Of a stretch of 32,824 nt of DNA, positions 3,617 to 13,277 are shown in pieces (the stretch's first letter is position 1; the number at the start of each line of letters is the position of its first letter). The notes beneath the pieces were generated by a model. That model saw only the letters and a program-made list of their open reading frames with translations. It was not told where the DNA came from and made no database searches. Both the position numbers and the translations under genes were made by a program. This stretch comes from Spirochaetes bacterium GWE1_32_154 (GTDB lineage: Bacteria; Spirochaetota; GWE2-31-10). The DNA is taken from positions 1-32,824 of the forward strand of contig MIAY01000024.1 in the NCBI GenBank assembly GCA_001829315.1, written 5' to 3'.

Positions 3617-5428
3617 ATGAGTTTATCTAAAGTAGTAGCAGTCAATAAAGAGAAATGTGTTAATTGTAGAGAATGCGTAAACAAATGCCCTATAAAATAC
3701 TGTATTGAAACCGATGGAAAATCGGTAAAAATTAATGACGATCTCTGTATTGCGTGTGGAAACTGTTATAAAGCCTGCCAATACGAAGCAATAAGTATCG
3801 TTGATGATTTTTCAGAATTCCTTGATGCAATTAATAAAGGTGAAAAATTATGCATTATTCTATCGCCTTCTGTAATTATTGAATATAAAGAAGATTACAA
3901 AAAATTAATAACCTACCTGAAAAGCACCTGGGCATTAACAGAGATTTACGACGAGGGATTAGGCGCCGAAATTTCTGCACATAAATATATTGAACATATA
4001 AAAAAAAATGGAGTTTCCCCCCTTATATCACAACAATGCCCAACCATTGTTGAATTTATCAGATCATATAAACCAGATTTAATACAATATCTCGCACCAA
4101 TTCAATCACCAGCTGTGATATTAGCAAAATACATTAGAGATGAATTGAAATTTGATGGTAATATTGCATATATTGGTTCATGTCTTGCAAAAAGAAGAGA
4201 ATTTAAAGACCCTGATACTGATGGTGTGATACAATTTAATATAACAATGCATAACCTAAAAAAATATATTGAAATGCATAAAATTGATCTAGGTAAATAT
4301 CCTAATAGTAAGTTTGCATTAATCCCATCTGAAAACGGATCTGTTTTTTGCAGAGCAGGTGGAATAAAAAAAATAGCAAACAGAATATATGACAAAATAA
4401 ATATCAGAGGTGTTGAGGGATATGATATCTATGGTACATATTTTAATGATTTACAAAAAAATATTGATAGTAAATTTAAAAAGCTCCCATTAATAATCGA
4501 CTGCTATAACTGCTCAGGGGGATGCTTTAATGGACCTGCCTTAGAAACAGAATTGACGTATGAAGAGAAAGAATCAATTATTCAATCAAGATTGGATGAA
4601 GGAATTACAAAATACAAATCAAGTCAAAAAGCCCAGAATACTATTGAACAATTTATAAAAAATATTAAAGAAGCAACATTTGAAAGAATATATTTTTCAG
4701 AATCACCAAAAGTTATAAATACAATGAGTGTTGAAAAAATCATTAAATCATTTGACAACACCTCATTAAAATACCCTCAGGATTTTGTTTGTACCTATTC
4801 AGGATATGATAATGCAAATCAATTTGCAACTGCAGTTGCAAATAAAATAACCAATAACAATGTAAGTCGAAAATATTTAGAAAATGCTTATAGAATCCTT
4901 ATTGAAAATAATTATGATATTTCAAATGAAATATCATCAACAACAATCGAAATGGAAGCCTCAACACGTTCTATCGTTGTTCTTGCAGAAAAAGCGATCT
5001 CAACATTTAACTTAATTCTATCACTAACAGAAAAAGTAAAAAAGCACATTTCAAAATTAAAAGGAAGTTCAAATGAATTCAGTCCGATAGTTAATGCAAT
5101 TTCTGAGATTTCAGAACAAATTAACCTTTTATCATTAAATGCAGCAATTGAAGCATCAAGAGCCGGTGAAATGGGAAAAGGTTTTGCTGTTGTTTCTACA
5201 GAAGTTAGAAAACTTGCTGATAAAACAAAAACAGAAACAGAAAAACTTATTCCATTAACGCAAACGAGTGCCGAATCGATTGAAAATATGAATGACGAAA
5301 TTGAAAGTCTCGACTCATCGACCCATGAATTTGCTCAAGCTATAGAAACTCTTCATAAATCAATATCAGAAGTAAATGAAGCAATTCAAAACCTTGGAAA
5401 TATGTCAAAGAAACTATCATCTAAATAA
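3617..5428 (+). CDS. [FeFe]-hydrogenase-like sensor fused to a methyl-accepting chemotaxis domain
   Basis: This soluble 603-residue protein has three parts. Residues 14-54 hold two [4Fe-4S] motifs (C14, C17, C20, C24; C44, C47, C50, C54). Residues about 75-310 match the [FeFe]-hydrogenase large-subunit domain, with the four H-cluster cysteines kept: C141 (SQQCP), C189 (GSCLAK), C299 and C303 (CSGGC). Residues about 430-603 are a cytoplasmic MCP signalling hairpin whose tip reads [16 protein letters not shown] followed by GKGFAVV. There is no membrane segment. The catalytic proton-relay cysteine of TSCCP is Gln140, and the usual Met of the ExMxC motif is Tyr297, so H2 turnover is unlikely and sensing is the better inference. 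Residues 390-412 resemble the C-terminal Fe-S domain of sensory hydrogenases but have kept only C392. Start ATG follows AAGGTTGG. No che gene is adjacent. Confidence 0.88.
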
Positions 5429-5660
5429 TAATATCAAGACCATCAGATTTTTTCTGATGGTCTTTGCTCGTATTAAATTTCTTTTGAATATAAAAAGGAC
5501 ATAACTCACCAATTGAATTTGCCACTGTTGCATAAGGAATAATTCGTTTAGTTACAAGCCCCCATTTAGTACATGTATAAATAAAATACTGCCCTAACCC
5601 AGATTTTTTGGATAAATACGAACAAGTATGACAATTTACTATAATTTTGTTATCATCCAT
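5421..5660 (-). CDS. Small four-cysteine protein, 79 aa
   Basis: Family not recognised. The product has CHTC at residues 10-13, then YTC near 30 and LCPFY near 54, a spacing that could bind one zinc ion or an Fe-S centre (inference). It follows the adenosine deaminase gene, and its ATG shares one base with that gene's TAA (TAATG), so the two are probably translationally coupled. This argues that it is a real gene. Its last eight bases overlap the end of the convergent chemoreceptor gene, and its last third contains a 12-bp hairpin that looks like a terminator. That makes the C-terminal end (after about residue 60) less certain than the Cys-rich part. Confidence 0.6.
5436..5464. terminator. 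12-bp perfect hairpin between convergent genes
   Basis: AAGACCATCAGA (5436-5447) pairs perfectly with TCTGATGGTCTT (5453-5464) around a T5 loop. It starts seven bases after the stop codon of the chemoreceptor gene and is the natural terminator for that transcript, though only a short T run follows the stem. Because it is symmetrical it could also act leftward. It lies inside the reading frame of the small Cys-rich gene. Confidence 0.7.
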
Positions 5661-6954: not shown

Positions 6955-7002
6955 TACGATATTATTATGATATTATAAATAATTGTTTAAACGGGGTTGA
7001 TT

Positions 7003-7443
7003 ATGCCAAAGATACTTATAGCTGATGATAAAAATGAAAATAGATTTGTTTTAAAAAACTTTTTCAAACTATTTGGAAATGATTATACAATTGAAATTAT
7101 TGAAGCAGGTTCTGCAAAAGAATCAATTGAACTGATTGAAGCCCACAAACCTGATCTTGTTTTAATGGATATTAAAATGGAAAGTGAATTTGCAGGTTTT
7201 GATGTAGTAAAACATATTAGAGAAAGAAGTGAATATTCTTCGATTATTATCTGGGCAATAACAGCTCATGCACTTGAGGCACATGACTCAGAAGCTTCAG
7301 ACCAGGAAAAATGTTTAAATGCCGGTTTTGATGATTTTATTTCAAAACCATTTGATCCGGTTAACCTTCTGCTAAAAACATCAAAATTATTAAACATGGC
7401 AATACCCGAAAACGTTAAGAAAAAAATAGGTTTAATCAGCTAA
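7003..7443 (+). CDS. Single-domain response regulator
   Basis: Stand-alone CheY-like receiver domain of 146 residues with no output domain. Acidic pocket D8/D9 (ADDKNEN), phosphoacceptor D56 in LVLMDIKM, switch threonine T88 in AITAHA and the conserved lysine K115 in FISKPFDP are all present. I start it at ATG 7003, because the GGGG ribosome-binding stretch (6993-6996) is six bases upstream. An in-frame TTG six bases earlier would leave no spacing. No histidine kinase is nearby, so its partner is unknown. The signal may go to flagellar motors, the cell cycle or a phosphorelay. The 3' end overlaps the convergent DHH gene by four bases. Confidence 0.93.
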   Translation: MPKILIADDKNENRFVLKNFFKLFGNDYTIEIIEAGSAKESIELIEAHKPDLVLMDIKMESEFAGFDVVKHIRERSEYSSIIIWAITAHALEAHDSEASDQEKCLNAGFDDFISKPFDPVNLLLKTSKLLNMAIPENVKKKIGLIS

Positions 7444-8865: not shown

Positions 8866-9306
8866 ATGAAAAGTATATTATATACTAATACCAGAATTAC
8901 AAACAGAAATAATCTTGATATAAAAGGTACATTGTCCTTTGATTTTCATAATAACATTATCTCAGAAGTTATAATGATAAATAACATCTCATTAAATGGA
9001 CTTCAAATTGTTTTTTCAAATAATTATTTTTTATATACTATATTGGAAATCAATGAAAAGAATGATTTTATATTTGATATAGAATTTAATTTACATACAT
9101 ATTCAATTAAAATAAAATGCACGATTAATTGGATTAAAATTATAGATATTGGAGAAAAATCGTTTTACGTATTACTGGGAATTAACTATGAAAGAAACAA
9201 CTTCATAGAAAATAAACAGAATTTAATATCACTATTAGTTGATATTAATATGACTAATTTCTACCTTGGAAAAATCGAAAATATAGAAGAATCATTAATA
9301 GGGTAA
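8866..9306 (+). CDS. Probable PilZ-domain protein
   Basis: This small basic protein of 146 residues has the layout of a single PilZ domain, the cyclic-di-GMP receptor fold. RITNR at residues 10-14 fits the RxxxR motif. NISLNG at 40-45 stands where (D/N)xSxxG is expected. The C-terminal stretch around INWIK and VLLGINY resembles the closing beta strands of PilZ. The Asp of the second motif is Asn, which is an accepted variant. Start ATG is preceded by TGTGAGAAAA, a modest ribosome-binding site. It stands alone between the divergent DHH gene and the gatAB operon. If the call is right it links c-di-GMP to an unknown target. Identity is from motifs only. Confidence 0.6.
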   Translation: MKSILYTNTRITNRNNLDIKGTLSFDFHNNIISEVIMINNISLNGLQIVFSNNYFLYTILEINEKNDFIFDIEFNLHTYSIKIKCTINWIKIIDIGEKSFYVLLGINYERNNFIENKQNLISLLVDINMTNFYLGKIENIEESLIG

Positions 9307-10936: not shown

Positions 10937-12393
10937 TGAATAAACCATATCCAATAATTGGTCTTGAAGTTCATGTTCAATTAAAAACTAAAACGAAAGC
11001 ATTTTGTCGCTGTGAAAATAAATATGGTGGCATACCCAATTCAAGGGTATGCCCTGTTTGTATGGGAATGCCTGGTATGTTACCGGTACTTAATGAATCT
11101 GTTCTCAATGATGCGATTGTAGCAGGTTTAGCTTTTGGATCACAAATCGCATCGATTACTAAATTTGATCGTAAAAATTATTCATACCCTGATTTACCAA
11201 AAGGATATCAAATCAGTCAATATGACAAACCAATTTGTTCAGGTGGATTTATAGAAATCGAAGATGATAATGGAACATTGAAACATATAAATATTACAAG
11301 AATACATATAGAAGAAGATGCCGGTAAATTAATTCACCTGGAAGACGGCACAAATAATAGTTATGTTGACTATAATCGTTGTGGAGCACCATTATTAGAA
11401 ACAGTATCTGAACCGGATATAAGATCTTCTGATGAAGCGGTAAAATACTTAAAAAGTTTAAAGGAAATATTCGAATACATCGAAATATCAGACTGTAATA
11501 TGGAAGAAGGTAGTTTACGTTGTGATGCAAATATCAGTATGATGATACCCCTTTCAGATGGAACTGAAATTAACACTCCAATATCTGAAGTAAAAAATAT
11601 TAATTCATTTTCAAATGTAAAAAAAGCTATTGAATATGAAATTATTCGTCAAGTTGAGGAATATCACAAAACGAAAGAAGTTAATAATGGAAAAAATAAA
11701 ATTACCCGGGGATTTGATGATAGTAAAGGTATAACTGTATTCCAGAGATCTAAAGAAGGTGAGTCAGATTACAGATACTTCCCTGAACCAGATTTGCCTC
11801 ATCTGGAAATAACTGAAGAGTTAATTAATAAATCAAAACTAAGACTACCTGAGTTACCTCAAAATAAAAGAAATCGACTTGAAAATCAATATGGTATTAC
11901 CCAATACGATGCAACAACATTATCTGCGGATAAAAAACTATCTGATTACTTTGAAAAATGCTGTAAATACACAACGAATTATAAAAAAGTTGCTAATTTT
12001 ATACTTACCGATATTTGTTCAATTTTAAATACAGAAAACATTTCAATTATCGATTTTTCAGTTTCTGCTGAAGATATTGCACAACTTGTAAATCTTTTAT
12101 CTGATGGTACAATCAGTTCATGGATTGCAAAAAGTGTATTTGAAAAAATGCGTTTAACTAATAAAAATCCTTTAAGTATTGTTGAAGAAGAAAGTCTTTT
12201 ACAATTAAACAATGATGATGAATTAGACACAATAGTTATCAAAGTTTTATCTGAAAATCAAAAATCAGTAGAAGATTATAAAAACGGTAAAGATAACGCT
12301 CTAAAATACCTTATGGGACAAGTTATGAAACAATCAAAAGGAAAAGCAAATCCGGTAAAAACAACTGAAATGCTTATTGAGAGACTAAAATAA
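10936..12393 (+). CDS. gatB: Asp-tRNA(Asn)/Glu-tRNA(Gln) amidotransferase subunit B
   Basis: GatB is the tRNA-binding kinase/transamidase subunit: it phosphorylates the mischarged aminoacyl ester and amidates it with ammonia channelled from GatA. The 485 residues begin with the hallmark IGLEVHVQLKTKTKAFCRC, followed by CPVCMGMPGMLP (zinc-binding cysteines), then NYSYPDLPKGYQISQYD and the DYNRCGAPLLE catalytic-cradle region. The last 150 residues match the helical YqeY-like tail that grips the tRNA. Its ATG overlaps the gatA stop, and its own TAA overlaps the ATG of the next gene, both as TAATG. No defect is seen. Confidence 0.97.
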   Translation: MNKPYPIIGLEVHVQLKTKTKAFCRCENKYGGIPNSRVCPVCMGMPGMLPVLNESVLNDAIVAGLAFGSQIASITKFDRKNYSYPDLPKGYQISQYDKPICSGGFIEIEDDNGTLKHINITRIHIEEDAGKLIHLEDGTNNSYVDYNRCGAPLLETVSEPDIRSSDEAVKYLKSLKEIFEYIEISDCNMEEGSLRCDANISMMIPLSDGTEINTPISEVKNINSFSNVKKAIEYEIIRQVEEYHKTKEVNNGKNKITRGFDDSKGITVFQRSKEGESDYRYFPEPDLPHLEITEELINKSKLRLPELPQNKRNRLENQYGITQYDATTLSADKKLSDYFEKCCKYTTNYKKVANFILTDICSILNTENISIIDFSVSAEDIAQLVNLLSDGTISSWIAKSVFEKMRLTNKNPLSIVEEESLLQLNNDDELDTIVIKVLSENQKSVEDYKNGKDNALKYLMGQVMKQSKGKANPVKTTEMLIERLK

Positions 12394-13277
12394 TGCCTGA
12401 TAATTGTGATACTACTATTTTCAAAAAAACTAATGGCCCTTATATCAGATCAATGAAAGGCGAGCGATTTTTTGATTTTTCAAGTTCAAAAAATATTATT
12501 GGTTTTACCGATAAAATAGTAACAAGATCTTTAAAAAACAACACGACTTCACTTCTTAATTTAAATCAAAAAACAATTTATCATAATAGATTTTTAAAAA
12601 TTTTTAATCCGAAAATGCTGAGTAATCATTCTATTTGTTTATTCAGCTCACTAAAAGAATTAATATATTATTTTTCTTACTATTACAACGGAATGGACAC
12701 TAAGGGGCAAAGAGATTCTATTCTATTAGATTCTCTTGGTATAAAAAGATCAGATTCAATTCAATTGCATGATATGGCTGAATTATTTTTAAATGATTCA
12801 GTTCAAAACATTAGCCCAAATGTAATTAATATTTCAAATAACTATTTTCTACCATTCATTGATTTAAATTCAATAAATACAAAAAATGAAATAATAATAC
12901 TGCCTTCGCTAATGAGTGGTTACATAGACAACGTATATGTTCTTATTTCAAATGAATTATTAAAAAAATGCAAGGGTATACGATTATTTAATCAGATTCC
13001 TGGATATTTAATTGCCCATTCACTTGATTTTTATCATAGAATTAAAGGTTTTTCTGATATTTCCTACCCTGAAATTTCAAATGATAAACTATTACAAAAA
13101 TCAAGACTTATTTCTTTTTCGAATTTAGATAATAAAAATATTGAAAAAATATATAAAACATTATTCGATCATACAATAATAATTAATAAATCACCGCCAT
13201 ACTACTCATACTTACCCGGAATATTAGATGAGAATCAGAAAAAGAAGTTATTGGAGCAAATAAATGATTTATTTTGA
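12393..13277 (+). CDS. Degenerate class III aminotransferase-like protein
   Basis: I read this 294-residue protein as a shortened relative of class III PLP aminotransferases (glutamate-1-semialdehyde or acetylornithine type). KTNGPYIRSMKGERFFDFSS (residues 12-31) matches their N-terminal pattern GxYLxDxDGxxYLDF, the stretch near 82-98 (SICLFSSLKELIYYFSYYY) matches their small-molecule phosphate-side helix region, and the C-terminal end is also similar. It lacks the DEVQxGxGR stretch and any clear PLP lysine motif, and is about 130 residues shorter than active enzymes. It is therefore probably not an aminotransferase. Yet it is an intact frame, coupled by TAATG to gatB and overlapping the next gene by 14 bases, which suggests a retained role. 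That role is unknown. Confidence 0.5.
   Translation: MPDNCDTTIFKKTNGPYIRSMKGERFFDFSSSKNIIGFTDKIVTRSLKNNTTSLLNLNQKTIYHNRFLKIFNPKMLSNHSICLFSSLKELIYYFSYYYNGMDTKGQRDSILLDSLGIKRSDSIQLHDMAELFLNDSVQNISPNVINISNNYFLPFIDLNSINTKNEIIILPSLMSGYIDNVYVLISNELLKKCKGIRLFNQIPGYLIAHSLDFYHRIKGFSDISYPEISNDKLLQKSRLISFSNLDNKNIEKIYKTLFDHTIIINKSPPYYSYLPGILDENQKKKLLEQINDLF

Follow-up and report, generated by a model that had tools for sequence, protein, structure and literature searches.

The gene at positions 3617-5428 (+) of the window, by which we mean the whole stretch of DNA analysed here (32,824 nucleotides, contig 24 of the genome), encodes a protein in which a sensory [FeFe]-hydrogenase-like part is joined to an MCP signalling hairpin, and this protein, whose function we infer throughout, is probably a soluble H2-responsive chemoreceptor of the group C2 type that signals without a third cluster. 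The absence of the C-terminal [4Fe-4S] motif is a feature overlooked by the first-pass annotation of this DNA. Hydrogenase-MCP fusions are a known and common kind of protein, and it appears from the sequences compared that the loss of the third cluster is what is new here. We give roughly even chances to the proposal that a natural H2 chemoreceptor has here shed its C-terminal [4Fe-4S] site and gone on sensing.

The reading frame begins with ATG and runs for 603 amino acids uninterrupted by stops. Two [4Fe-4S] ferredoxin motifs occupy residues 9-60 (3641-3796 (+); Fer4, 4.8e-08, in two stretches), with C14, C17, C20 and C24 as the ligands of one cluster and C44, C47, C50 and C54 as those of the other. 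The H-domain follows at residues 79-307 (3851-4537 (+); Fe_hyd_lg_C, PF02906, 5.8e-27, above the gathering score) and carries the H-cluster ligands C141, C189, C299 and C303 together with K192. Next comes the degenerate C-terminal [4Fe-4S] site, identified by ligand alignment at residues 389-417 (4781-4867 (+)), and finally the MCP signalling hairpin, with helices at residues 418-515 and 517-602 (4868-5422 (+)) delimited by the AlphaFold2 model and by the MCPsignal match (PF00015, residues 472-601, 1e-27). The Fer4, Fe_hyd_lg_C and MCPsignal matches are all far beyond chance, and Pfam matches up to E 0.1 included no PAS domain in this protein. The AlphaFold2 model (mean pLDDT 86.3) comprises a hydrogenase body, with pLDDT mostly between 83 and 96 across the H-domain, and two hairpin helices, and in Foldseek [FeFe] hydrogenases rank first, including CbA5H, TmHydA and CpI. 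The intact frame and the Pfam matches thus bear out the earlier claim that one protein joins two ferredoxin motifs, a four-cysteine H-domain and an MCP tip, and the four cysteines, Gln140 and Tyr297 were all found where the first-pass annotation had placed them. The Kyte-Doolittle profile gave no sign of a membrane helix, its highest 19-residue mean being 1.56 and located within the hairpin, which is consistent with the proposed solubility.

None of the 86 aligned sequences departs from the eight ferredoxin and four H-cluster cysteines, and 83 of them keep K192, the equivalent of CpI K358. Judged by this ligand conservation and by the fold, the suspicion that the pocket might be unable to hold an H-cluster finds no support. 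It had also been argued that Gln140 and Tyr297, which align with the proton-relay Cys299 and Met497 of CpI, point to a sensor. The same two columns hold Cys and Met in the group A enzymes of this genome; two of the eight orthologs have Q at position 140, four have H and two have R, while at position 297 three have L, two have M and one each has Y, S and T. In the full alignment of 86 sequences Pro occupies position 140 in 72 and Leu occupies position 297 in 79, Y297 being unique to the window protein. Both residues were rejected as diagnostic because they vary among orthologs and relatives; they fit a sensory-type enzyme, and neither is conserved or decisive. TmHydS, with Ala and Ser at the equivalent positions, still turns over H2, and restoring Cys at its proton-relay position reduced activity (PMC10055695). 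Because TmHydS is active without this Cys, its absence alone does not separate a sensor from an enzyme.

As far as the sequence goes, the case for a sensor rests best on the covalent MCP output, on membership in a family that is almost always fused to an output, and on the loss of the entire canonical proton path. What stands of the earlier sensor reading is a cytosolic sensory-type [FeFe] hydrogenase with a complete chemotaxis hairpin, and what falls is the use of Gln140 and Tyr297 as evidence for it. By alignment, the group A proton path is fully replaced (E279 by S120, E282 by K123, C299 by Q140 and S319 by A160, in CpI numbering). These replacements could slow H2 turnover and, taken with the full conservation of both ferredoxin clusters and with the existence of cytosolic redox sensors on chemoreceptors such as Aer, they give some weight to a redox or energy-taxis sensor, in which the two ferredoxin clusters come into redox balance with the ferredoxin of the cell, the H-cluster chiefly takes up electrons and the physiological ligand is something other than H2. 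Against this, TmHydS remains H2-active without its proton-path Cys (PMC10055695). The four H-cluster ligands, K192 and the maturases are also all kept, while a pure redox sensor would need none of them, and we regard this alternative as unlikely. Since H-clusters bind CO, and residues near the H-cluster in the pocket are altered, the ligand could be CO or another H-cluster inhibitor instead of H2. This we consider very improbable, as changes at the same positions in TamHydS and TmHydS accompany lower CO sensitivity (PMC8163306) and a CO-metabolism gene was not recognised among the ORFs of the window.

Proteins of the sensory groups C and D (M2f, M2e) have a motif near the C-terminus, Cx2Cx4Cx16C, that holds one more [4Fe-4S] cluster (PMC8163306; PMC13104023). 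The window protein retains C392 alone, which is its sole cysteine beyond residue 310; S395, A400 and S417 stand where the remaining ligands would be, and a one-residue deletion lies ahead of C392. In two orthologs, L012 and L014, the four ligand positions read C, T, V and S. Our scan of named genomes comprised 80 loci, seven of them identical to the orthologs, and 77 of these 80 named relatives have the strict motif, the exceptions being L069, L071 and the frameshifted L099. By identity and length L069 and L071 are the same proteins as L012 and L014, from the MAGs RGIG8597 and HAN109. Five orthologs out of eight have the motif, none of the three sensory paralogs in the window genome has lost it, and the PF04060 (FeS) match follows the same division, being present in L009, L010, L004, L005 and L007 and absent from the window protein, L012 and L014. 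Over residues 361-420 the AlphaFold2 confidence, taken by blocks, is 59-81 in the window protein and 71-89 in L009, an ortholog that bears the cluster. In the RGIG8597 and HAN109 MAGs the paralogs fused to an MCP (L077 and L080) have the motif intact, and the loss is therefore specific to this gene. Sequencing error was rejected as the source of the missing cysteines, since three genomes agree, partly with different substitutions. We also rejected L099 as an additional cluster-less protein: its reading frame is interrupted at the linker, and the MCP part goes on in a different frame. This hydrogenase-MCP gene (L099:3944-5329) has either an assembly error or a real break at that point.

H2 does not reduce the C-terminal cluster of TamHydS (group D), and disrupting this cluster hardly alters catalysis (PMC13104023). 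A natural loss would be tolerable because TamHydS catalysis barely depends on that cluster, and a natural loss with the remainder of the protein conserved agrees with a third cluster that has a structural role and is not an electron relay.

When the tree includes the linker, the three proteins without the third site group as a single clade (100/100) nested among the orthologs, themselves a clade (100/100), and in a tree built on residues 1-308 only they are still grouped at 91/93, under the strict star threshold. The fourth genome of the window's family, whose protein L010 matches MAG.183, retains the site. The simplest reading of these sequences is one loss within the window's family. Could the loss of the third cluster instead mark a sensor that is losing its function? 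Such a decaying copy could account for the low linker identity to the cluster-bearing orthologs (22-33%), for the Ser at the CpI P354 position and for the unique Y297. However, the ORF is intact, the F- and H-cluster ligands and the MCP tip are invariant, and the new linker is itself conserved (47% identity to L012 and 44% to L014). Comparison of L012 with L014 gave dN = 0.05 and dS = 1.21 overall, and dN = 0.04 and dS = 2.25 in the linker, which puts dN/dS near 0.04 for the whole gene and at a smaller value yet within the linker. The cluster-less pair is thus under strong purifying selection and is not decaying. The nearest relatives of the window protein are about 52% identical and dS is at or near saturation, for which reason only clade-wide conservation speaks for its function. 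Altogether we consider decay an improbable explanation.

Seven further genomes of the order have full-length orthologs (49-52% identity), so that the gene is present in eight of the nine genomes of the order examined, the window genome counted, and the closest named kin are uncultured Spirochaetes MAGs, some apparently from animal guts and digesters. The search for further hydrogenase-MCP fusions that had been proposed showed them to be common: among the 67 scanned relatives Fe_hyd_lg_C is found in all and MCPsignal in 62, and these relatives span at least four phyla, with Spirochaetota, Bacteroidota, Ignavibacteriota and Bacillota among others. Cultured organisms that carry such a fusion include Heliobacterium mobile and Natronincola peptidivorans. 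By its architecture, a sensory-type H-domain covalently linked to an MCP (MCPsignal 1e-27), the window protein corresponds to the description of [FeFe] group C2, which HydDB names 'Chemotactic (putative)' (PMC5037454); the architecture is also treated in PMC9431212. The sensory role of [FeFe] hydrogenases has been termed putative (PMC8924675), and direct physiological proof of such a role is not known for any of them.

The hairpin is antiparallel, with its turn at residue 516 and its tip at E518 in the AlphaFold2 model, and its arms of about 12 heptads each (C-arm of 85 amino acids) match the short 24H class. The canonical CheA/CheW tip, a 16-residue stretch, is conserved in all eight orthologs. 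A search for the strict methylation-site consensus found none in the window hairpin and one loose site in the ortholog L011. The genome (a 4.0-Mb draft, 97.6% complete) contains ten CheR-domain matches, four flagellin matches and 16 CheW-domain matches, of which seven lie in CheA-size frames (658-819 amino acids) and most others are CheW-sized; CheA and CheW, on whose presence the chemotaxis interpretation had been made to depend, do occur in this organism. The maturases likewise gave matches above the curated cut-offs (HydG 512 bits, HydF 476 and HydE 329), with HydG and HydE adjoining on contig 23 and HydF on contig 1, and the earlier call for hydEFG in the same genome is thereby answered for all three genes.

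Seven proteins of the genome have an H-domain. Three (L001-L003) are group A-like and about 580-605 amino acids long, and four are of the sensory type, namely the window protein, the MCP fusions L004 and L005, and the GGDEF/EAL fusion L007. The three hydrogenase-MCP fusions of this one genome would be a paralogous set of putative hydrogen chemoreceptors; likely counterparts of all three occur in several genomes of the order, and hairpin lengths among the fusions fall into at least two classes (C-arms of 85-91 versus 122 amino acids). The remaining sensory-type protein, encoded at L007:1225-3633 (+) (contig C1, about 400.7-403.1 kb), joins a sensory-type [FeFe] hydrogenase to GGDEF (108 bits) and EAL (173 bits) domains, and the gene before it (L007:114-1148) looks by eye like a HAMP/SpoIIE-type phosphatase. 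HydDB lists kinase, MCP and phosphatase outputs for the [FeFe] groups C1-C3 and a diguanylate-cyclase link only under [NiFe] group 2c; the GGDEF/EAL output of L007 may be new for [FeFe] hydrogenases.

Just past the stop codon of the window gene lies a terminator-like palindrome with a 12-bp stem (5436-5464), its T-rich tail being reported on the - strand, and the flanking ORFs, named by eye as uvrA-like (-) and adenosine deaminase-like (-), run in the opposite orientation. The palindrome and the opposing neighbours suggest a one-gene transcript. A sigma-70 promoter scan was uninformative (16 sites versus 15.4 expected). None of the neighbours of the window gene is common to any ortholog, only the close pair L069/L071 sharing neighbours with each other, and operon context was for this reason rejected as evidence. 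The protein looks like a stand-alone receptor that must rely on arrays encoded elsewhere. Elsewhere in the window, about 1.6 kb downstream of the hydrogenase-MCP gene, positions 6997-7443 (+) encode a stand-alone response-regulator receiver with a TTG start (PF00072, 2.3e-21). The ORFs at 8866-9306 (+) (146 amino acids) and 12393-13277 (+) (294 amino acids) are without a Pfam match at 0.01, and the latter has a one-base overlap with the stop codon of the gatB-like ORF before it.

Placing these results into a model of signalling, HydE, HydF and HydG, being present in the genome, would load the H-cluster. H2, or the H2/ferredoxin redox state, would then alter the H-cluster and the two ferredoxin clusters, as suggested by TmHydS and TamHydS, and the resulting change in H-domain shape would act on a cytosolic MCP dimer. 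For the cluster-less lineage, transmission from the H-domain to the hairpin would run through the remodelled linker, with no C-terminal [4Fe-4S] cluster of the usual kind in between, and the MCP tip would control a CheA/CheW array, and through it the flagella, the components of both being present in the genome. If so, an H-domain could signal to its output by shape change alone, and the leftover Cys392, beside the start of the MCP hairpin, may serve a simpler switch, for example as an inter-subunit thiol. This bears on how the signal passes in sensory [FeFe] hydrogenases, where the C-terminal [4Fe-4S] cluster was once proposed as a relay and the TamHydS work argues against a redox role. A clade that is cluster-less and keeps all other ligands and the chemotaxis tip amounts to a natural deletion experiment. 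The short soluble protein could be reconstituted with CheA and CheW, and its cluster-bearing orthologs of about 50% identity, among them L070 from MAG GWB1_27_13, would provide matched controls. To our knowledge hydrogenase-MCP fusions, although frequent in anaerobes, have not been tested as hydrogen chemoreceptors, and we know of no group C2 protein that has been assayed.

Compared with group C2 as defined in HydDB (PMC5037454), the window protein has the same H-domain with H-cluster ligands, the same MCP output and the same proposed H2 sensing, but its relatives keep the C-terminal [4Fe-4S] site that it has lost. TmHydS of Thermotoga maritima (group C, M2f) resembles it in the two N-terminal [4Fe-4S] motifs, the sensory-type H-domain and the non-Cys proton-relay position; TmHydS, however, has a PAS domain after a C-terminal [4Fe-4S] cluster, whereas the window protein has neither and its output is a covalent MCP hairpin. 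TamHydS of Thermoanaerobacter mathranii (group D, M2e) shares the N-terminal clusters and the changes at the Cys299, Met353 and Met497 positions, yet it keeps Cx2Cx4Cx16C, lacks a PAS domain and has no MCP output described, while the window protein has the MCP and has lost the motif. Ballor and colleagues (2012) reportedly suggested that hydrogen sensor/transducer H-domain proteins of termite-gut treponemes feed methylation or chemotaxis pathways; the Treponema loci of our scan keep the third cluster site, unlike the window protein. Finally, Aer and other cytosolic redox chemoreceptors also monitor redox or gas conditions inside the cell and have no ligand domain in the periplasm, but Aer does so with an unrelated FAD-PAS sensor, and its homology to the window protein is limited to the hairpin.
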